58,195 nt of DNA. Origin: a virus. The translations under genes were made by a program, and so were the position numbers. The stretch spans positions 1 to 58,195 of the IMG/VR virus record IMGVR_UViG_3300032116_000229. One strand, given 5' to 3'. Shown piece after piece: positions 29,244 through 54,517 of this stretch (its first letter is position 1; the number at the start of each line of letters is the position of its first letter). Under the pieces are notes generated by a model. The model did not search any database, was not told the DNA's origin, and was given only the letters and a program-made list of their open reading frames with translations.

Positions 29244-29283
29244 CTGTCACCATGTAGTGAGTTGCCCGACTACATGGTGACAG
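29244..29283 (-). promoter_or_regulatory. 15-bp hairpin sequestering the Shine-Dalgarno of the next gene
   Basis: CTGTCACCATGTAGT (29244-29258) pairs perfectly with 29269-29283 around a 10-nt loop. On the minus strand the 3' arm ends CATGGTGACAG directly before the ATG at 29243, so the GGTGA ribosome site is inside the stem. There is no U-run, so it is not a terminator. Candidate RNA operator, thermometer or autoregulatory site. Confidence 0.7.
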
Positions 29284-43699: not shown

Positions 43700-45889
43700 C
43701 TACGCGGCTTTTGTCGAGTCAAGCAGCATGACTTCCAGCTGCCGCATAACGGTAGTCGGAAGCTCATCCAACTTGTTGATGACAACATGATTGCGGTAAT
43801 ACCGCTTGACGGCAGCGGACATGATGCCAATGCCGAATACTTCGATACCGCCGGACTGAATTCGCTTGACCGTCTCGGCAAGATGCCAGTCTTGTGCGGA
43901 ACGGTCGCCCTCAGCGCACGGCAGGCCGTCAGACAGGACAATCATCAGTTTGCGGGCCTCTCGACGCGCCCACAGCCGTTTGGCGGCATATTCGACCGAC
44001 TCGCCGTCAATATTGTTTGCCAGGTCAATTTCGTCATAACAAGCCATTGCGCGGCGTCGCTCTGAATTAAAGCGGCTGTTGAAAGACTTGAAGATAGGCA
44101 TATAAACAGCCTCAGACCGCGAATACTTATGGCGGTCTGCGCCTACTTCTGCAAGATACACGCCAACCTTGCTCGGCCAATTAGTGGTGAAGCCGATAAT
44201 TTCGTGCGTGATATTGAGCCTATCAAGCGATGAGGACAGGGCGAATGCCGCCTTCATAGCCAAATCAATCTTTGACCCACCCATCGAGCCAGAAAGGTCA
44301 ACAACAAGGCTGACCGCAACATCCTTAGTCCGGCTTACATACTTGCGCCTGAACAAGCGTTCGTCGCCAGTCGCAATGCGATGCAAGGCGCTTGGGTTGA
44401 TTCGGCCCGAGCGATAGCCTGGAATCATGCGGCTGTGAGAGCGGGCCGCAACAAATCGCTCCAAATGACGCTGCAAAGGCCCGATATGACTGCTAACGGC
44501 GGCCTCCATTGCAGCCATTTGCCTCAGTTGGGTCGGCACACCTGCGCGCGGACGAAACTCGGAGATATCATCCAAGTCCCTAGTAAGCGGCGTGTATCTT
44601 GACGCCGCGTGGGCCTTCTCAATCTCCTCAGCGATTTTCTTATCCATCATCGCGTCGAGGTCTTTTGCCTCCTCGATAGCCTTGATGACATCCGCAATTG
44701 ACTCTGCGATTTCGCCGTCGAGGCCCTCCTCAGAGTCCTCGTCCTCGCTCTCATCTTCGGAGTCCTCATCAGAGTCCTCATCAGAGTCCTCATCAGAGTC
44801 CTCATCAGAGTCCTCATCAGAGTCATCCTCGTCGGAGCCACCCTCAGAGTCCTCCTCATCAGAGTCCTCATCAGAGTCATCCTCGTCGGAGCCACCCTCA
44901 GAGTCCTCCTCATCAGAGTCCTCATCAGAGTCATCCTCGTCGGAGCCACCCTCAGAGTCCTCCTCATCAGAGTCATCCTCGTCGGAATCGCCCTCGTAGT
45001 CAGAGTCGTCCGCAGAGTCCTCCTCCGGATGTCCGTCCTCGGGGTGCTCGTCCTCAGACTCATCGCCGGGGCCGTCATCAGGGTCGCCGGAGTCGCCGGA
45101 GTCAGAGGCGCTAGATTTGCTGCGACGGGTGGGGCCAGAAGAATCACCATCTGCATCGGGCGTGCCGCCAGAGGTGTCCTCGCCTTCGCCTTTTTCGCCC
45201 TCCTCCTTCTCCTTCTTTTTCCTTTCCTCTTCCTCGACGCGACGCTTGAGTTCCTCAAGCCGATTGTGCATCGCAACCGCCAACTTGTAGCCGTCCTCCG
45301 AAGAATTGACGGTACGAATCCGGTCAATCAAGTCGCTGCCGATTGCCTTAATCATCGGCTCGATAGTGGGCAGGTGCGGCTTAATCAGCGCCTCGCACTC
45401 TTTCTGGCCAGACCAGAAGCGCATGAGCGGCACAAGCAGTGTGCCGAAGATTGCTTCCTTGCTGCCTGATGCAACCGCCTTAGCAAGCGGCTCCTTGAGA
45501 ATGTGCTCCTCGACGAACGACCAGGTCTTGACGAGATTCTCCTTAGAACCACCGTAAGCCTCCTTCATTTTTCGTTCGATGAAGGTGTCCTCGATGACAC
45601 CGTAGATGCTGCCGACCTTCGAGTGTCTGGCAGTTTCCACAAACTTCGCATTGCTAAACAGAATGTGCGCGCACTCGTGGTCAACGAAGCCTTGAATGGC
45701 AATCAGCAGGGCATCCGGCGCGCTGTCCGGAATGTACGGGATGTTTACCCGCTCCGGGACGAAGGTCTTGGGATGATAAGAGACATACGCCTTAGTGCCG
45801 ACCTGCGTGACTTCGACACCGCGCCCGGAGAGCAATGGCACGATTTTTGCAATTGACTCTCGGAGAATTTCTACTTTTGTGGGCTTCAC
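43700..45889 (-). CDS. cobT: CobT-like VWA-domain protein
   Basis: 729 aa, GTG start. N-terminal helical domain with DHECAHILFSN (near residue 62, an HExxH-type site). A very acidic low-complexity centre (about 235-395) is built of DSDEEDSEGGSDED repeats. A C-terminal von Willebrand A domain has MIDAS DLSGSMGGSK near 535 and VLSDGLPCAEGD near 660. This is the architecture of CobT, the partner of CobS. Transcribed first in the cobT-cobS unit from the promoter at 45907-45992. Confidence 0.82.
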   Translation of the reverse strand: MKPTKVEILRESIAKIVPLLSGRGVEVTQVGTKAYVSYHPKTFVPERVNIPYIPDSAPDALLIAIQGFVDHECAHILFSNAKFVETARHSKVGSIYGVIEDTFIERKMKEAYGGSKENLVKTWSFVEEHILKEPLAKAVASGSKEAIFGTLLVPLMRFWSGQKECEALIKPHLPTIEPMIKAIGSDLIDRIRTVNSSEDGYKLAVAMHNRLEELKRRVEEEERKKKEKEEGEKGEGEDTSGGTPDADGDSSGPTRRSKSSASDSGDSGDPDDGPGDESEDEHPEDGHPEEDSADDSDYEGDSDEDDSDEEDSEGGSDEDDSDEDSDEEDSEGGSDEDDSDEDSDEEDSEGGSDEDDSDEDSDEDSDEDSDEDSDEDSEDESEDEDSEEGLDGEIAESIADVIKAIEEAKDLDAMMDKKIAEEIEKAHAASRYTPLTRDLDDISEFRPRAGVPTQLRQMAAMEAAVSSHIGPLQRHLERFVAARSHSRMIPGYRSGRINPSALHRIATGDERLFRRKYVSRTKDVAVSLVVDLSGSMGGSKIDLAMKAAFALSSSLDRLNITHEIIGFTTNWPSKVGVYLAEVGADRHKYSRSEAVYMPIFKSFNSRFNSERRRAMACYDEIDLANNIDGESVEYAAKRLWARREARKLMIVLSDGLPCAEGDRSAQDWHLAETVKRIQSGGIEVFGIGIMSAAVKRYYRNHVVINKLDELPTTVMRQLEVMLLDSTKAA
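44765..44990. repeat. Coding tandem repeats (12 bp and 54 bp periods)
   Basis: The acidic centre of the CobT-like gene is built from a 12-bp unit (CATCAGAGTCCT) and a higher-order 54-bp unit whose TCGTCGGAGCC mark falls at 44829, 44883 and 44937. It encodes an 18-residue Asp/Glu/Ser/Gly repeat. Such arrays expand and contract, so copy number probably varies between isolates. Confidence 0.8.
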
Positions 45890-46051: not shown

Positions 46052-46672
46052 TCAGTCCGCTGTGTCGGATTGAGAGCCTGATTCTGACTGGTGAAGACGG
46101 TCAAAAATGAACCTGGTCAACTGGTTGACCTGCCAATCCTGCGACCGCTCTTCAAACTGCTCCAGGCAGTAATCCCATGGCATCAACGAAACCCACTCCA
46201 GCTCCGCACGGGTCAGGAGAAAGCGTCGCCTGTAAATCTCCCAGTCGGCTTCGATATCCTGGAACATCCGCTGAGCAAACCTATGCCGCTGAAGGCTCGG
46301 CGTGATGTTGATGAATACCTTGATGTGTTTCCAGCCGTACTGGTTGGCGACCCTAGCCAACTGCATCGCGCCGTTTGGCTCCACGATAACGATAGGAACC
46401 TGACCGCTCTGGATTGCGGCTTTTACACTGTGAACCGCTACGCCGTACTTATAGCCGCCGTACTCTACCCGCTCGGCCATTTCTACGGACTCAAACTCCT
46501 CGTCCGAGACGAAATAGTAATCCACCATGTCCCGCTCGCCTGCGCGAGAGGGTCTGGTAGTGTGACTGACAATCTCCTTGAAGCCGCCCCGCGATTGCAG
46601 GGTCCGCATAAGGGTCGTCTTTCCAGAGAGCGACGGACCAGTAAGGCTTACGATTGCATTGATAGGTTTCAT
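46052..46672 (-). CDS. gmk: Guanylate kinase-like protein
   Basis: 206 aa. P-loop GPSLSGKTTLM near residue 12, then HTTRPSRAGERDMVDYYFVSDEEFE near 37-61, the GMP-binding region of guanylate kinases, and YKYGV/VEPNGAMQL. Phosphorylates GMP/dGMP toward dGTP supply. The family's usual core is nearly full length; C-terminal 50 residues are divergent. Starts on the ligase stop (TGATG). Confidence 0.85.
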   Translation of the reverse strand: MKPINAIVSLTGPSLSGKTTLMRTLQSRGGFKEIVSHTTRPSRAGERDMVDYYFVSDEEFESVEMAERVEYGGYKYGVAVHSVKAAIQSGQVPIVIVEPNGAMQLARVANQYGWKHIKVFINITPSLQRHRFAQRMFQDIEADWEIYRRRFLLTRAELEWVSLMPWDYCLEQFEERSQDWQVNQLTRFIFDRLHQSESGSQSDTAD

Positions 46673-47964
46673 CACCACTCCGACTTATCCATTCTGAGGG
46701 AAACGAAGCGCGGGTGCCGAAGCGAGCCGGCCTCCGTGACTTCCTGGAACTGAACTTCCGCAAGTTTGTGGCGATAAACTTCTCGATTGCGCCAGATGAG
46801 ATTTCGGTCCTCGTCGCTGATGCCCGAGCCGACACGAACCGGCACACCCTTGCGGTCCACAATAAGAGCGCCGAGAGTGCCGACAAACTTGCCTTCGCCC
46901 TCCTCGAAACCGATGATTTCCAAATCTTCGGAGTCCTCGGCCTTCATCTTGATCCAGGCTGAAGACCGCTTGCCGACATAGCCGCTATTAGGCGCCTTGA
47001 TGATTGCGCCCTCGAAGCCTTTGTCTCGGAAGGCGCCATAGTAATGGGTGACTTCTTCTTCGGAGGAAGCCACATAGGACGGAGGGAAACTAATGGAGGC
47101 CGGACCGTCGTTGAATTTGAGCGCGGACAGGTTAACCGCAGTGACAAGAGCCTGCCGACGCGCCGCATAGTTCTTTTCCGTCCAAGACTGCTTGCCAGCC
47201 TTTCTGAAGGCCTCGTACGGCAGCCAGTCAAATACATGGTAGGTCGCATCGTGGAAAACTTCAGACTTGCGACGGGCCTTTTCCATCGTCTCCTTGAAAG
47301 ACTTGCCCATCACTTCGCCATCAATAACTACGGCGTCGCACCCTTCGTCGGAACACAACTTGTTGGCAATATTTTGCAGCGACTTTTCCAGCGATTCGGG
47401 TAGGGAGGTCACAGGTTTGCCGCTTCTGGTGTAGAACTTGACGCCAGACGCATCCACGACCGAGAGCACCCGCATACCGTCGTACTTAGGCTCGATGCGA
47501 CACGGATATTCGATTTTCCGACTGTCGTACGGCTCGGCGAGCATACAGGAGAACTCAAACAGAAAGCCCGGAATAGCCGTGTTGATGGTGCCTGCGCCCA
47601 GGCCCCAGGACAGGTCCTTGTCGAGAATGGCAACAAGAAGTTGTGCCTCGTCGAACAACAGTTCCGAGCACCGCTTGTTGGCCCACTCTGCGCCTTTGCT
47701 TCTATTCATCTTGCGACTTGCCAAAAGCCGTAGCGTCTCAAAGTCCTTCGAATTAAGTACCCCGGTAACTTTCTCGGCGATTGAGAGTCGCAGCTCCACG
47801 CTGTTCTTGCCAACATTGAAGGCAATCGAGGGGTCCATCGCAAGGGAAACCATTTCGCCAAAGTTTGGCACGGTCTCCACAAACTTCTTAAACAGGTCCA
47901 CCTTTTCCTTGCGGCTACCCGCTGCGCGGACCTGGTTAACACATTCCGACAAAATCAGATTCAT
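46672..47964 (-). CDS. ATP-dependent DNA ligase
   Basis: 430 aa. Nucleotidyltransferase motif I is EPKYDGMRVL near residue 155 (Lys is the adenylation site). Then FYTRSGKPV (III), VVIDGEVMGKS (about 213), FEGAIIKAPN (IV, about 325), SSAWIKMKAED (V) and an OB-fold end. N-terminal 140 residues are helical, as in T4/T7-group ligases. Seals nicks in lagging-strand and recombination products. The first gene after the small gap at 47965-47988. Confidence 0.92.
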   Translation of the reverse strand: MNLILSECVNQVRAAGSRKEKVDLFKKFVETVPNFGEMVSLAMDPSIAFNVGKNSVELRLSIAEKVTGVLNSKDFETLRLLASRKMNRSKGAEWANKRCSELLFDEAQLLVAILDKDLSWGLGAGTINTAIPGFLFEFSCMLAEPYDSRKIEYPCRIEPKYDGMRVLSVVDASGVKFYTRSGKPVTSLPESLEKSLQNIANKLCSDEGCDAVVIDGEVMGKSFKETMEKARRKSEVFHDATYHVFDWLPYEAFRKAGKQSWTEKNYAARRQALVTAVNLSALKFNDGPASISFPPSYVASSEEEVTHYYGAFRDKGFEGAIIKAPNSGYVGKRSSAWIKMKAEDSEDLEIIGFEEGEGKFVGTLGALIVDRKGVPVRVGSGISDEDRNLIWRNREVYRHKLAEVQFQEVTEAGSLRHPRFVSLRMDKSEW

Positions 47965-49202: not shown

Positions 49203-50282
49203 TCAAAACATAATGGCCCTGAGGAGAGACTTTGCGCCGGCGGCATCAGATGGATTGACGGCACCAAGAAACTGCTTCCGAACAACCGCGCCAGATACCT
49301 CGTTGGGGTCTTTACCCTTTGGAAGAATGGCGATGTTGACCGTCAAACCGATGCCACGGAGCTTATCCGCCGCCTTAATAGCAGACCTAAGTGCGGCTGG
49401 CTCCGAGTCCCACATTATGGTGACGGTTCGCAGGTTTGCTGCCTTCAGGGACGCAAAGGCATCTATCTGCGTGTCGCCTTCAAGCCCCACAGATAGGTGC
49501 ATACCGAAGGTGCCTACCGCAGCGACATTACGAAGTGCCGGATCTTCCTGCAATGCTGCATGAATGGCTATCACATCGAACACGCCTTCGCCCACGACAA
49601 TGTGGCTGGACTGCCAAGCGTTGTGACCGTTATAGAGATAGCGGCCCGACGCACTCAGCCCAGGCGGGAATAGATACTTCGGCTCCTTCGCCCCGGTAAT
49701 GTCGCGGCCCTGAAAGGTCTTGAGGTTGCCCTCCAGGTCGAATATCGGAATGATGACCCGACCAGAGTAGTCTTGGCGGTAGACGGCCCCATCAACTTCC
49801 ATCTTGTGCCCGCCAGTATGGCAGTAACGAAGATTGAAGAACCGGGCCAAGTCGCCCGTGACTCCACGGCTCTCGAGATACTCCAGATTGTTGCCGTCAA
49901 TGTCTGGCAATTCAATGCTGGTCGGCAACTCGACGCTCCCGCTCCAATCTACTGCCGCAGCCTTCCTCCGCGCCCGCCATCCCATCGCTGACGCGCTCTC
50001 TTTTATATGTGCGATGACTTCGCGATGGGCTGCGTCTCCAAGGAGCGCACGGATGAACTTATACTTGTTGAAGGTTCCAAGCTGGCAACCGCCTTTGAAG
50101 CAGTTGCCAAGGCCCGTAGATTCGTTGGCGTAGACTTTCCAATTGTTGTCTCCGCAGGACGGGCAGGTTTTGATGTTCAGCTGCCTGCCCGAAGAGCCAG
50201 GGCGCGTCCTATACTCGACCCCCATGTGGTCCAAGTAGGACTCCAAGTCCAACGCCTCCAAGATTTCGTTTAACTCCGACAC
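49203..50282 (-). CDS. DNA primase (zinc-finger + TOPRIM)
   Basis: 359 aa, GTG start. N-terminal zinc ribbon CPSCGDN...CFKGGC (residues 40-68). Linker, then an alpha/beta TOPRIM core with VVGEGVFDVIAI (catalytic Glu near 222) and TIMWDSEPAALRSA (Asp near 290). It also contains SGRVIIPIFDLEGN, typical of DnaG/gp4-type primases. No helicase domain is fused; the helicase is the next gene upstream. Makes RNA primers for lagging-strand synthesis. Confidence 0.88.
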   Translation of the reverse strand: MSELNEILEALDLESYLDHMGVEYRTRPGSSGRQLNIKTCPSCGDNNWKVYANESTGLGNCFKGGCQLGTFNKYKFIRALLGDAAHREVIAHIKESASAMGWRARRKAAAVDWSGSVELPTSIELPDIDGNNLEYLESRGVTGDLARFFNLRYCHTGGHKMEVDGAVYRQDYSGRVIIPIFDLEGNLKTFQGRDITGAKEPKYLFPPGLSASGRYLYNGHNAWQSSHIVVGEGVFDVIAIHAALQEDPALRNVAAVGTFGMHLSVGLEGDTQIDAFASLKAANLRTVTIMWDSEPAALRSAIKAADKLRGIGLTVNIAILPKGKDPNEVSGAVVRKQFLGAVNPSDAAGAKSLLRAIMF

Positions 50283-50287
50283 TCGGA

Positions 50288-51610
50288 TTACTCTTTACCA
50301 ATTACCCTAGCAATGAACTTCGCGCGCTCGAGCGCCTGCTTAACACGAATGGTGATTCCATCTTCCTGGTTTCTCGACGCTGCGAAGTAAAGCCGCGCCT
50401 CTTGTCTGGCCTTCTCGTCTTCCGTGGAGTTGATAGAGATAAGAAGGTCGACGATGCGCGCCTTGTTAATGTCCTCGGAAACGTGCTCCATCCTTTGAAC
50501 AGCCTGCTGGAAACCTTCTCGATTGGTCTGGGTCGCAGATACCAAGGCCAAATTTTCCATCTGAGCGATGGCGCGGACCCCGGTGTATATTTGCTTGGAG
50601 TTTTCGATGGATTCTGTCGTCCGATAGTCCGGCGCCATCAGGTCCAAGTAGTCCAGGACGACCATATCGAAGGTCGTGCCTTTCGCCTTGTAATGATGGA
50701 GCAGCCGTACCAACGCCTTTGGCGTCAAGGAACCCGTTGGGAACTCGTGAATACGAAGTAAGCCACAGTCTTTTCTTGCCGTTTCTATACGGTCGGCGAC
50801 CTCTAAGGCGGAAATTCCAAGCGTCGACAGGCTGATTTCGGAGATGTTGGCGTCGAGCCGCTCCGCAACAATCTTGGCGGAAAGTTCCAGCGTGACATAC
50901 ATCACGTTGTGGCCAGCAAAGCAGGCGGCTCGAGCCGAATCAATCAGCGCCATACTCTTGCCGGACTTGGGGCCGCCCATGTAGATGGACAGCTCCTTCC
51001 GGCCCCACCCGCCGTGGTAGAGGATGGTGTCCATGATTTCGATGCCGGTGGTGATGCCAGACTTCGAGATTCGGCCAGCCACCAGGTCTTCGCGGTAAAG
51101 CTTCCGCTCCTCGATGGTGTCGAAGTAGGAGTAGCCCTGGTCGGTCTCCACCACGCCGACTTCGCTGGCGCGCTTGACCACGCGCTCAACATCGTCGAAC
51201 TTGCCTTTGTCCACCAGGTCGACGGACTCGAGAATTGCCACCTTCAAGGCCTGGTGCCGAGCGAACTCGGCGACCTTGTCGATTACGAAGTCCCGGTCCG
51301 CGATGACCACATCATTCAGCGCAGTCAGGGTGGCCGGGATTTCATGGACTACCCCCTTGCGGAATTTCTTTTTGACAATCCCATCCTTGATGACCTCGGT
51401 AATCGCGCCCTTCCCGCGAGGGATGGTGCGATATTTCTGGAAGTACTCCAGAAAGCAGGACGCAATGCCCGCCTCTAGTTCGTTGGAGAACTGCTCCGGC
51501 TTAATGAGGCCATCCGTACGGATGTGAAAGTCCACGTCCCTGCACAGCAGGGCCACGATGGTGGTCTGGAAAGCCTCGTCAAACTGGAACTTCTCGAGTT
51601 CCTCGGACAT
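50288..51610 (-). CDS. dnaB: DnaB-like replicative helicase
   Basis: 440 aa. N-terminal helical part, then a RecA-like core: Walker A MGGPKSGKSMALID near residue 222, Walker B FDMVVLDYLDLMAP near 320, SATQTNREGF near 365 and an arginine-bearing end (LYFAASRNQEDGITIRV). The hexameric 5'-3' unwinding motor works with the adjacent primase. Starts 3 nt after the Hfq-like gene's stop. Confidence 0.9.
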   Translation of the reverse strand: MSEELEKFQFDEAFQTTIVALLCRDVDFHIRTDGLIKPEQFSNELEAGIASCFLEYFQKYRTIPRGKGAITEVIKDGIVKKKFRKGVVHEIPATLTALNDVVIADRDFVIDKVAEFARHQALKVAILESVDLVDKGKFDDVERVVKRASEVGVVETDQGYSYFDTIEERKLYREDLVAGRISKSGITTGIEIMDTILYHGGWGRKELSIYMGGPKSGKSMALIDSARAACFAGHNVMYVTLELSAKIVAERLDANISEISLSTLGISALEVADRIETARKDCGLLRIHEFPTGSLTPKALVRLLHHYKAKGTTFDMVVLDYLDLMAPDYRTTESIENSKQIYTGVRAIAQMENLALVSATQTNREGFQQAVQRMEHVSEDINKARIVDLLISINSTEDEKARQEARLYFAASRNQEDGITIRVKQALERAKFIARVIGKE

Positions 51611-51613
51611 GGC

Positions 51614-51925
51614 TTACTCCAGGATTTCGAGGGTGAACGACTCGATGGCGTGCTTGAAGAAGATGGTCGGGTTTTCCTCGCCATCCCGGAAGAACGACAC
51701 GGTAAAGCGGTCCGACTGGCTAAGACGACCGACGTGCTCCTCACCGGAGATTGCCACGATTGTGATGCGGACATTCTTGTGCCGCAGCATATCAATCAAG
51801 GCGTCATGGCCTTCCTTGCGGTTAACTTCCTTGCGAACCGGCGACCGGCTGGTTCCATAGGCACGAACTCGACCCCGCTCGGGAAGTCCAAGTTGCTGAC
51901 GAATGGTCACGTTTTCATCACTCAT
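51614..51925 (-). CDS. hfq: Hfq-like Sm-fold protein
   Basis: 103 aa. After a basic N-terminal extension of about 38 residues there is one Sm domain. GHDALIDMLRHKNVRITIVA is followed by a G-x-x-G turn and SDRFTVSF, which correspond to Hfq's first helix and Sm1. FFKHAIESF (89-97) matches the bacterial Sm2 hallmark YKHAIS. Acidic short C-terminus. Hfq hexamers bind A/U-rich RNA; this one could redirect host sRNA networks or bind phage RNA. Cotranscribed with helicase. ATG chosen over a GTG three codons earlier. Confidence 0.7.
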   Translation of the reverse strand: MSDENVTIRQQLGLPERGRVRAYGTSRSPVRKEVNRKEGHDALIDMLRHKNVRITIVAISGEEHVGRLSQSDRFTVSFFRDGEENPTIFFKHAIESFTLEILE

Positions 51926-51960
51926 GTTATTCACCCGTTACTTACTGTTTGAGACAAAAA

Positions 51961-52443
51961 TCAATGGCCGGCCAATTTCTTGACGACCGCTTCAACGACA
52001 TTGCTGTTTGCCAACTCGCGAGGTAAGGCGAGTCGCTTCCAACCTGCACGCTCTGAATAGTCTAGAGCATGGAAGCAAAATTGCTCATAGTCTGCACCGA
52101 TGGAATCGGCTGCTCGGCGAGCTGCCCACAGGCCGACCCGATTCTGCTCGGTGTCGTCCATAGGGTTGGCCGCCGAAAAGATACGGTGCTTATCAACCAG
52201 CCTGAAGTCTTCTCGCTTCCGAAGTGCCCATCTGTAGGCAGCGACATAGGCTTCTGCAAAGAGCATCGTAGCGGCCATAGGATGTAGGCTGCGGTACTTT
52301 GCATTCTTAGTCGTATACAGTCTTGCTTCGCCAGCAAGATACTTCTCTGGAATTGAAGTCAGTGACCTAGAGTCTAGCTCCAGGTCGCTGAAGTGTCTAC
52401 CAAAGTAAGGCCCGTTACTCTTTCCGATAGCATCAACAATCAT
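51961..52443 (-). CDS. Hypothetical protein, 160 aa
   Basis: Mainly helical: HPMAATMLFAEAYVAAYRWALRKREDFRL, then a VGLWAARRAADSIGADYEQFC segment. No motif recognised. Lies between PhoH-like and Hfq-like genes; the AAGTAACGGG element is in the gap after it. Confidence 0.6.
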   Translation of the reverse strand: MIVDAIGKSNGPYFGRHFSDLELDSRSLTSIPEKYLAGEARLYTTKNAKYRSLHPMAATMLFAEAYVAAYRWALRKREDFRLVDKHRIFSAANPMDDTEQNRVGLWAARRAADSIGADYEQFCFHALDYSERAGWKRLALPRELANSNVVEAVVKKLAGH

Positions 52444-52473: not shown

Positions 52474-53178
52474 TCAGTCAGTCTCGTAGACTTCGACAAT
52501 GCGCTGCGAAATCCCGGAGCGCACAATATCCGCCTTGGTGAAGTTGACAACGCTAACGCCGCCAATCGACCGGGTGCGGTGTACAGCGTCCTCCAAGCCA
52601 TTCGCATTCGGGATGTCACGCTGCCTGATATCGCCGTTGACCACGACTTTCGAGTGATTGCCAACGCGGGTCAGAAACAACTTCATCTGAACGGAACTGG
52701 CATTTTGTGCCTCGTCGAAGAGGACAAAGCAGTTGTCGAAGGTATGCCCACGCATATAGGCCAGCGGTAGCGCCTCGATTGTGCCCCGCTTCACCATGTA
52801 CTCGACCTGACTTTTGCCAAGTCGGGCCTCGAGAATCGCCTTTACAGGCCGAAAATACGGGTCGAACTTCTCTTCCAGCGAGCCAGGGAGAAAGCCGAGC
52901 TCCTCGCCTGCCTCCACAGCTGGGCGCGTAACGATGATTTTTCTGACTTGCCGACTCTTAAGTGCCTCTGCTGCCTCACAGGTCGCAATGTATGTCTTGC
53001 CAGTTCCTGCGGGGCCGACACCAAAAGTGACAACTGACGACCGAATCGCCGTCAGATACTCTGACTGGGCGGCAGTTTTTGGCTCTAGCTTGGAGTCGTC
53101 TCGCTTTTCTACCTTGTGGTCCGTACCCAGTTCCGCAGCCAAGCTCTCTTTCTTGGTTCGCTTCCTGACTTTGGACAT
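52474..53178 (-). CDS. phoH: PhoH-like ATPase
   Basis: 234 aa. Basic N-terminal extension, then the PhoH core: Walker A VGPAGTGKTYIA near residue 58, TRPAVEAGEELGFLPGSLEEKFDPY near 87-111, Walker B CFVLFDEAQNAS near 154, FLTRVGNHSKVVVNGDIRQRD near 168. PhoH-type ATPases are common in large phages, where an RNA-related role is suspected but unproven. Next to an Hfq-like gene, which supports an RNA theme. Start set at MSKVRKRTKK, 4 nt after the upstream stop. Confidence 0.88.
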   Translation of the reverse strand: MSKVRKRTKKESLAAELGTDHKVEKRDDSKLEPKTAAQSEYLTAIRSSVVTFGVGPAGTGKTYIATCEAAEALKSRQVRKIIVTRPAVEAGEELGFLPGSLEEKFDPYFRPVKAILEARLGKSQVEYMVKRGTIEALPLAYMRGHTFDNCFVLFDEAQNASSVQMKLFLTRVGNHSKVVVNGDIRQRDIPNANGLEDAVHRTRSIGGVSVVNFTKADIVRSGISQRIVEVYETD

Positions 53179-53182
53179 GGGC

Positions 53183-54517
53183 TTACTTGCCAGGCCAAAT
53201 TGCGACGTTGTTGCCACCCTCTTCGGTGGTTCGATGATAGAACTTGCCGCCGACAATCGCGAAATTCGTCACCTGAACATACTCCATTGCTGTCGCCTGA
53301 GTCTGTGTGTCGGCGTGGGCAATCAGAAACCCATTCGACCACCGTTCGCCTTCGCAGTACTCGGCCATACGCCTATGGCCGGCGCCAAGCTGGTGCCACT
53401 CATAGGTTCCATACATCGGGTTGTAGTTTTGCCAAATCTCATGGCTGTGATGGTGTCCATTCCAGCCGGGTACGCCCATCCTCCGAGCGTGCGGGAAGTG
53501 GTGGGCTATGAAGCAGCCAAAGTAGGACTTGTAGTTTTTCGCCAACTCTCGGCTGAAGTCAGTCTTGTTGAAGACGGACAAATCCATTTTGGCAACATAG
53601 TTGCACTCGTACTTGTCTAGACCCAGAAGCTTCGGAACAGTCCAGCCATGAAGGTCTGATAGAAGTACGCGCATTGCAGGAGTCGCGTCCGCAAGCATTC
53701 TAAGAAGACGGGCCTCATGATTTCCCTCGATGATATCCAGCTGGGCATTCGGTGCAGCCTCTCGGAGTGGCTTGAGAATGTGGTCATGCACGAACTGGAT
53801 CCGGCCAACCACGTCCCAGTCGCGGGGGTCGACCGTGTATTTTCCAAATTCGGGCAGGTCGAACACGTCGCCGTTAAGGCAGATAACGTCGGGCTGAATG
53901 CGTCGGGCCGCGTCAATGAAGGTGCGCAACCAGAACGGGTCGCACTCGCGGTCATGCAAGTCGGACCCCACTAGAATCGTCTTATAGCGTCCCTCGCGGG
54001 GCCTATCGTACTTACCCTCGTAGCCCATGCGTTCAGCGGACAACGCCCTGTAATGGTCTCTGGATGCGTGTACCGCGATGTTGCGCTCAAGGGCGTGGGC
54101 TTGCCGGGAAAGCTTGATGTTGGCTTGCCGCTTGAACTCCTCGAAGGTACCGAAGTACCGATTCCAGGTGGACTCAGAGATGCTTGAGTTTGTCCGGAAG
54201 AAGTTTCGGGTGATGACCTTGTCCGGGTGCGCCTCGGCAATCCGACGAAGCTCCGAAAGGCAGTCTTCCGCGCTGTACTCTTCCTGATACTTCTCGGCGC
54301 TTTCCGACATCAGCGGCGGGTGGTACTCACCGCGATGAATCAGCTCCGGGACCGACCGCTTGCCCTTGCCGCGAGCCGCCCGAAGGCGGCGTGCTTTGTC
54401 AGAAATCTGCTTGCGGGTAAGGCCGAGTGCTTCCGCAAGGTCTGCCGTGAGTGGGTATTTCTGGACGTTGTTATAAGCGGACGCAAAGTCGTTGTCGGAA
54501 AGCTTTCCCTTCTGCAT
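53183..54517 (-). CDS. HTH-metallophosphoesterase fusion, 444 aa
   Basis: Residues about 10-50 form an HTH (NNVQKYPLTADLAEALGLTRKQISDKARRL); a helical linker runs to about 175. Then a calcineurin-like phosphoesterase: GSDLHDRE (about 182), LNGDVFDLPE (about 213), EGNHEARLL (about 265), AHHFPHAR and GHHHSHE (about 355). All metal-binding motifs are intact. Possible DNA-directed nuclease or phosphatase. First gene of the replication module, separated from lysis by a 20-bp palindrome. Confidence 0.85.
   Translation of the reverse strand: MQKGKLSDNDFASAYNNVQKYPLTADLAEALGLTRKQISDKARRLRAARGKGKRSVPELIHRGEYHPPLMSESAEKYQEEYSAEDCLSELRRIAEAHPDKVITRNFFRTNSSISESTWNRYFGTFEEFKRQANIKLSRQAHALERNIAVHASRDHYRALSAERMGYEGKYDRPREGRYKTILVGSDLHDRECDPFWLRTFIDAARRIQPDVICLNGDVFDLPEFGKYTVDPRDWDVVGRIQFVHDHILKPLREAAPNAQLDIIEGNHEARLLRMLADATPAMRVLLSDLHGWTVPKLLGLDKYECNYVAKMDLSVFNKTDFSRELAKNYKSYFGCFIAHHFPHARRMGVPGWNGHHHSHEIWQNYNPMYGTYEWHQLGAGHRRMAEYCEGERWSNGFLIAHADTQTQATAMEYVQVTNFAIVGGKFYHRTTEEGGNNVAIWPGK

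Follow-up and report, generated by a model that had tools for sequence, protein, structure and literature searches.

An Hfq-family Sm protein encoded beside the replicative helicase in a wide lineage of large phages

Hfq is among the best-studied bacterial RNA regulators, and the family is represented by the profiles PF17209 and TIGR02383 and by structures of the proteins from Escherichia coli, Bacillus subtilis (YmaH), Listeria and Caulobacter. A patch of arginines on its rim, R16, R17 and R19 in the numbering used here for Hfq positions, is conserved in Gram-negative Hfq and less so in Gram-positive Hfq. In the proximal pore, which prefers U-rich RNA whose 3' end is free, a base stacks on F/Y42 and is read by Q8, the residue at position 41 and K56, while H57 contacts the ribose 2'-OH; the rim arginines drive annealing (PMC10628458). 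In bacteriophage T4, the host E. coli Hfq hexamer has been reported in assembled portal–neck complexes (preprint PMC12270204). What is already known of phage-encoded members is the label of one GenBank record, in which Nican01_00034 is called 'hfq RNA-binding protein Hfq', and the annotation of Hfq-like domain proteins in mycobacteriophages. The papers on Nican01 and the Italian Nickievirus isolates make no mention of Hfq, and a literature search, short on subscription journals, found nothing on phage-encoded Hfq, functional studies included.

The window analysed here is the whole of a linear IMG/VR virus record of 58,195 nucleotides, possibly a fragment. On its minus strand, an open reading frame (ORF) of 103 codons runs from an ATG at 51925 to a stop at 51614; an alternative in-frame GTG at 51934 would lengthen the product by three residues. 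The first-pass annotation, guided by the Sm2-like motif FFKHAIESF (residues 89–97), had taken this product to be an Hfq-like RNA chaperone encoded beside helicase and PhoH genes. The neighbours are as it described: PhoH and then a phrog_2500 gene lie upstream, and a DnaB-like helicase and a primase downstream.

43703–45889: CobT-like VWA-domain protein, following the ligase gene
46672–47964, minus strand: ATP-dependent DNA ligase, in the same conserved replication module (phrog_114, E 5e-97)
49203–50282, minus strand: DNA primase, Toprim (phrog_47, E 5e-56)
50288–51610, minus strand: DnaB-like replicative helicase (phrog_19, E 2e-68; Pfam DnaB_C)
51614–51925, minus strand: Hfq-like Sm protein, 103 residues (Pfam Hfq above cut-off, AlphaFold2 model, Foldseek); residues 1–38, basic N-terminal tail; residues 39–101 approximately, Sm core
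51961–52443, minus strand: phrog_2500 gene, next upstream of the Hfq-like gene; product of unknown function (E 4e-25)
52474–53256, minus strand: PhoH-like ATPase (Pfam PhoH, E 3e-77; exact start uncertain)

Only 3 nt separate the stop codon of the Hfq-like gene from the ATG of the helicase. The window also codes for SbcCD-like nuclease subunits, a UvsX-like recombinase and a DNA polymerase, and no Rfam family was found in it. The CobT-like VWA protein is common to the window and the Nickievirus phages, and is likely not concerned with cobalamin synthesis. Comparison of the Hfq-like gene with that of a close relative (71–74% protein identity) gave a dN/dS of about 0.21 overall and 0.19 for the core, and we conclude that the gene is under purifying selection.

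The window protein scores 28.7 bits against Pfam PF17209 (Hfq; cut-off 27, E 1e-6) and 28.8 bits against TIGR02383 (E 8e-7), where it does not reach the equivalog cut-off of 61.7 bits. All phmmer matches in the PDB with E below 0.1 are Hfq proteins. The by-eye alignment with bacterial Hfq is borne out by the E. coli protein, to which the window protein aligns without gaps along the helix and strands one to three, and then at the Sm2 sequence FFKHAIE. When 50 divergent members of the family described below were scanned singly, 43 matched Hfq at E ≤ 0.01, the best of them at 8e-11, and other Pfam families were each matched by at most one member; RimP-C, LSM and SM-ATX each gave a weak match to one member, so that LSM/SmAP (PF01423), with 1/50, is not the best profile, nor is any non-Sm family. 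The 'Hfq related' profile PF21979 (Hfq_1) did not match the window protein at E ≤ 10; it matches only two Nickievirus members, from hairong (14.0 bits) and nickie (16.2 bits), against a cut-off of 27. No PHROG family gave a convincing match to the Hfq-like proteins.

An AlphaFold2 model of the monomer, computed with a 50-sequence family alignment as input, consists of a helix (residues 40–48) and five strands (52–58, 63–71, 75–80, 86–90 and 94–101), which is the fold of an Sm barrel rather than a non-Sm fold. The pLDDT is about 93–95 for residues 51–100, and the N-terminal tail is of low confidence. Searched against the PDB with Foldseek, the model gave 50 best matches that are Hfq throughout, and in a search of viral folds its top match was the nickie protein, at about 20% identity. 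The second-best viral match, BFVD Q3V4S2, is ORF86 of Acidianus two-tailed virus, possibly an Sm protein of an archaeal virus. We conclude from profile and predicted fold that the product of the 103-codon ORF belongs to the Hfq/Sm family, and the proposal of an Hfq homologue coded by a phage thus holds, the window being a virus record. The extra basic N-terminal extension that had also been remarked upon is real, comprising 38 residues with a net charge of +4 in the window and, across the family, a median of 43.5 residues with a mean net charge of about +3.3.

A protein search of viral contigs with the window protein returned three loci, and tblastn against the INPHARED phages a single weak match, in Pseudomonas phage hairong; two other family members found no match there, so plain similarity searches miss this family. 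With E. coli and B. subtilis Hfq as queries, only host-like copies or short or unannotated records were recovered, none of them belonging to the family. The hairong locus reads PhoH, unknown gene, small gene, helicase, and then primase, ligase and CobT; the product of the small gene, hairong_042, is also above the Pfam Hfq cut-off, and the equivalent slot is occupied in nickie, phiK7B1, ZY21 and Nican01. Because the Hfq-like protein is small and divergent, the wider search was started from the helicase, and an alignment of eight helicases yielded 80 loci from IMG/VR and 29 from bacterial assemblies. A first profile, which combined the window protein and a close relative with five proteins from Nickievirus and two Hfqs of bacterial origin, revealed an Hfq-like ORF directly upstream of most of the helicases recovered. 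When a profile of the expanded family was applied, such an ORF was found in 65 of the 74 IMG/VR loci that carry both the helicase and phrog_2500, always in the order phrog_2500 – Hfq-like – helicase and with no second match elsewhere in a locus, and in 16/24 comparable loci of bacterial assemblies, whose contigs are assigned to Xenorhabdus, Photobacterium, Magnetospirillum, Ectothiorhodospira and Methylocystis, among others. These counts are not independent since some contigs are near-identical; the distinct Hfq-like sequences number 73. A search independent of the helicase was made with a 14-sequence Hfq-like sub-alignment, the full 50-sequence alignment being too divergent for the scan. Among viral contigs found by the Hfq-like protein alone, the helicase came next, and phrog_2500 came before, in 63 of 63 testable loci in each case. 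A wide lineage of phages of about 100–120 kb and phage-like elements conserves the Hfq-like gene, and for this lineage the earlier statement that phage Hfq homologues are rare is wrong.

On Xenorhabdus contigs of about 64–109 kb, a very divergent Hfq-like ORF occupies the same slot and has lost the KH pair (FYGSIESF or NYSAIESF):

L118, 3655–3942: divergent Xenorhabdus Hfq-like ORF
L119, 3681–3935: divergent Xenorhabdus Hfq-like ORF
L121, 3716–3946: divergent Xenorhabdus Hfq-like ORF
L125, 3716–3946: divergent Xenorhabdus Hfq-like ORF

The gene is absent from phages of the Rhizobium RHEph10 type, SSU5, Cyrano and a few others, in which phrog_2500 abuts the helicase, and no Hfq-like protein was seen in the segments of T5 examined around its helicase D6. 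Altogether 23 of 95 distinct related helicases, about a quarter, are without it, so that in some clades it is dispensable or replaced. In the Stenotrophomonas phages ANB28 and BUCTxx99 and related contigs, the slot holds an unrelated-looking ORF of 69–70 residues:

L012, 3278–3484: 69–70-residue ORF in the Hfq slot
L090, 3775–3984: 69–70-residue ORF in the Hfq slot

The 69-residue form looks Sm-like by eye, which is borne out neither by profile comparison (probability 2.4%) nor by a single-sequence fold prediction (pLDDT 65). It is possible that this ORF is a replacement or a highly divergent Sm protein. The phrog_2500 gene, for its part, always precedes the Hfq-like gene, or the helicase where the Hfq-like gene is missing, a placement as conserved as that of the replication genes.

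Parsimony on the helicase tree requires 7 changes of presence, compared with a mean of 20.8 after shuffling; the root state depends on midpoint rooting. Distances between the Hfq-like proteins correlate with those of the helicase (Mantel r 0.79), the primase (0.78) and phrog_2500 (0.75), in no case equalled in 2000 permutations, and the comparison pairs helicase–primase and helicase–phrog_2500 gave 0.83 and 0.85. Since its distances track those of its neighbours, the gene is an old, co-inherited member of the block and was not captured recently from a host. We conclude that, in all probability, it has long been passed on vertically within the replication block of this large phage lineage.

Residue conservation was counted over the 73 distinct sequences. 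D40 is present in 73/73 and G34 in 70/73. In the proximal pore, K56 is kept in 68, an aromatic residue at 42 in 65, Lys, Arg or Gln at 41 in 58 and H57 in 51; the position of Q8 is His in 68, and that of H57 is Ser in 17. The window pocket itself (Q8, 41, F/Y42, K56, H57) reads H, R, F, K, H. The comparison of proximal-face residues that had been proposed thus finds the pocket kept with Q8 exchanged for His, and the U-binding pocket is retained, with that exchange as a caveat because uridine recognition may differ; the RNA preference could also be relaxed where H57 is Ser. The distal A-rich face (Y25, I30, K31, Q33) reads V, E, E, V in the window and is variable across the family, with mostly Glu, Val or Thr at Y25 and a mixture at K31. 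The rim positions R16, R17 and R19 are R, H, N in the window and mostly E/K/Q, G, G in the family. Distal-face and rim-arginine residues are thus mostly not conserved, which argues against a matchmaker of small RNAs (sRNAs) and mRNAs in the style of the host protein. The simplest reading of the residues would be a ring for U-rich RNA that does not have the surfaces of the host-type matchmaker.

Our preferred reading, to which we give a probability of about one in two, is that a ring of the Hfq type handles phage RNA during replication-stage expression, a role suggested by the constant presence of the gene in the replication block. The protein would form a six-membered ring whose proximal pore takes up single-stranded, U-rich RNA, probably by the 3' end. 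The position of the helix implies that the basic N-terminal tails should emerge on the proximal face, where they may assist RNA binding. Such a ring would serve as a phage-specific chaperone or stabiliser of the phage transcripts produced alongside the replication genes, and may act together with the neighbouring PhoH ATPase. Points against this reading are the His at Q8, the Ser at H57 in 17/73 sequences and the 23/95 helicases that lack the gene. An Hfq that a whole phage lineage has at a fixed place beside the replicative helicase, its U-binding pore preserved and its annealing surfaces gone, is a natural separation-of-function variant and opens a phage-coded step of RNA handling in replication or early expression to direct testing.

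The first-pass annotation had suggested as a target the phage transcript with a hairpin at 29244–29283. The stem is real: 29244–29258 and 29269–29283 form a perfect 15-bp inverted repeat with a stable predicted RNA fold (z −6.8), placed between the UvsX-like gene and a phrog_2105 gene, with the base abutting the ATG of the latter. The hairpin has no U-rich tail and nothing else connects it with the Hfq-like protein, so we reject this link, and the suggestion is unsupported. The hairpin could mask the start codon of the phrog_2105 gene, or its ribosome site.

The strict linkage with the helicase could mean a role in DNA replication and not in RNA handling. The main rival to RNA handling, which we hold to be unlikely though deserving of attention, is accordingly an accessory of the replisome, an Sm ring sitting on the DnaB-like helicase hexamer or primase, or on primer RNA or single-stranded DNA at the fork. 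It draws on the helicase lying immediately downstream in every testable locus found by the Hfq-like protein alone, on the 3-nt gap in the window, on the co-variation with helicase and primase distances, and on the E. coli Hfq crystallised with double-stranded DNA (PDB 5uk7) that is among the fold matches. The helicase distances, however, co-vary at least equally with those of primase and phrog_2500, and since the order of the whole block (PhoH, phrog_2500, helicase, primase) is conserved, lying next to the helicase does not single out a partner; close helicase relatives in the Rhizobium phages and SSU5, and the T5 helicase locus, do without such a protein. Somewhat less probable again, in our view, is a ring dedicated to the phage replication machine, where it would dock with the helicase or deal with primer RNA; were it so, an RNA-chaperone fold would have been turned into a conserved element of the replisome across a large phage lineage.

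Position and conservation of the gene make two further alternatives less likely. Interference with the host, in which the protein competes with host Hfq or enters mixed rings with it and so disables or redirects sRNA regulation, is doubtful. Fold and proximal pocket are those of host Hfq, and loss of the distal and rim residues could make the protein a decoy for U-tailed sRNAs; it is, however, no more than about 20–31% identical to bacterial Hfq, which makes mixed rings doubtful. Genes for host takeover usually differ in where they lie and in whether they occur at all, whereas the Hfq-like gene stays in its slot across a wide range of hosts, with distances that follow those of the helicase. 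The idea that the protein rewires host small-RNA regulation is weakened further by the residues needed for matchmaking being mostly not conserved. A part of the virion or its assembly, a ring plugging the head–neck channel, has a precedent in the E. coli Hfq hexamer reported to seal the gp13/gp14 neck of T4 (preprint PMC12270204), but is improbable for a gene that in every locus examined lies in the replication block and not among head or neck genes. Least credible, and already contradicted, is some other small SH3-like barrel with no kinship to Hfq: despite modest individual scores below the NCBI equivalog cut-off and the isolated weak matches to RimP-C, LSM and SM-ATX, the single-member Pfam scans and the fold matches both converge on Hfq, and the N-terminal helix and the KH motif of Sm2 are conserved in the family.

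RNA handling by an Hfq-like ring thus remains our preferred reading, and the protein may be set beside the systems already described. With bacterial Hfq, it has in common the N-terminal helix and predicted five-strand Sm barrel, the Sm1 G-G-D and Sm2 F/Y-K-H-A-I signatures and the proximal-pore set of K56, H57, aromatic 42 and polar 41. It differs in its low identity, in the His at Q8, in falling below the NCBIfam equivalog cut-off, in the non-conserved distal Y25 and K31 and rim arginines, and in its long basic N-terminal tail and phage replication-block context. The Nickievirus genes (hairong_042, FDJ16_gp117 and Nican01_00034) occupy the same slot upstream of the helicase in the same gene order, ligase included; their products are about 24% identical to the window protein, their tails are shorter, and nickie-type members have KS where the window protein has KH. 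The mycobacteriophage proteins of Tonenili and Phabba share a predicted Sm/Hfq-like fold with the window protein, to which they are weak fold matches (E 5e-3 and 7e-3). T4 is a parallel in that a phage uses an Hfq ring, but there the ring is host-encoded and structural, whereas here the protein is phage-encoded and belongs to the replication block. Compared with these systems, what appears to be new is the status of the gene as a conserved block member in a large phage lineage, together with the proximal-only pattern of residues; with it, dozens of genes for a 'hypothetical protein' gain a name in a lineage almost unannotated for Hfq.
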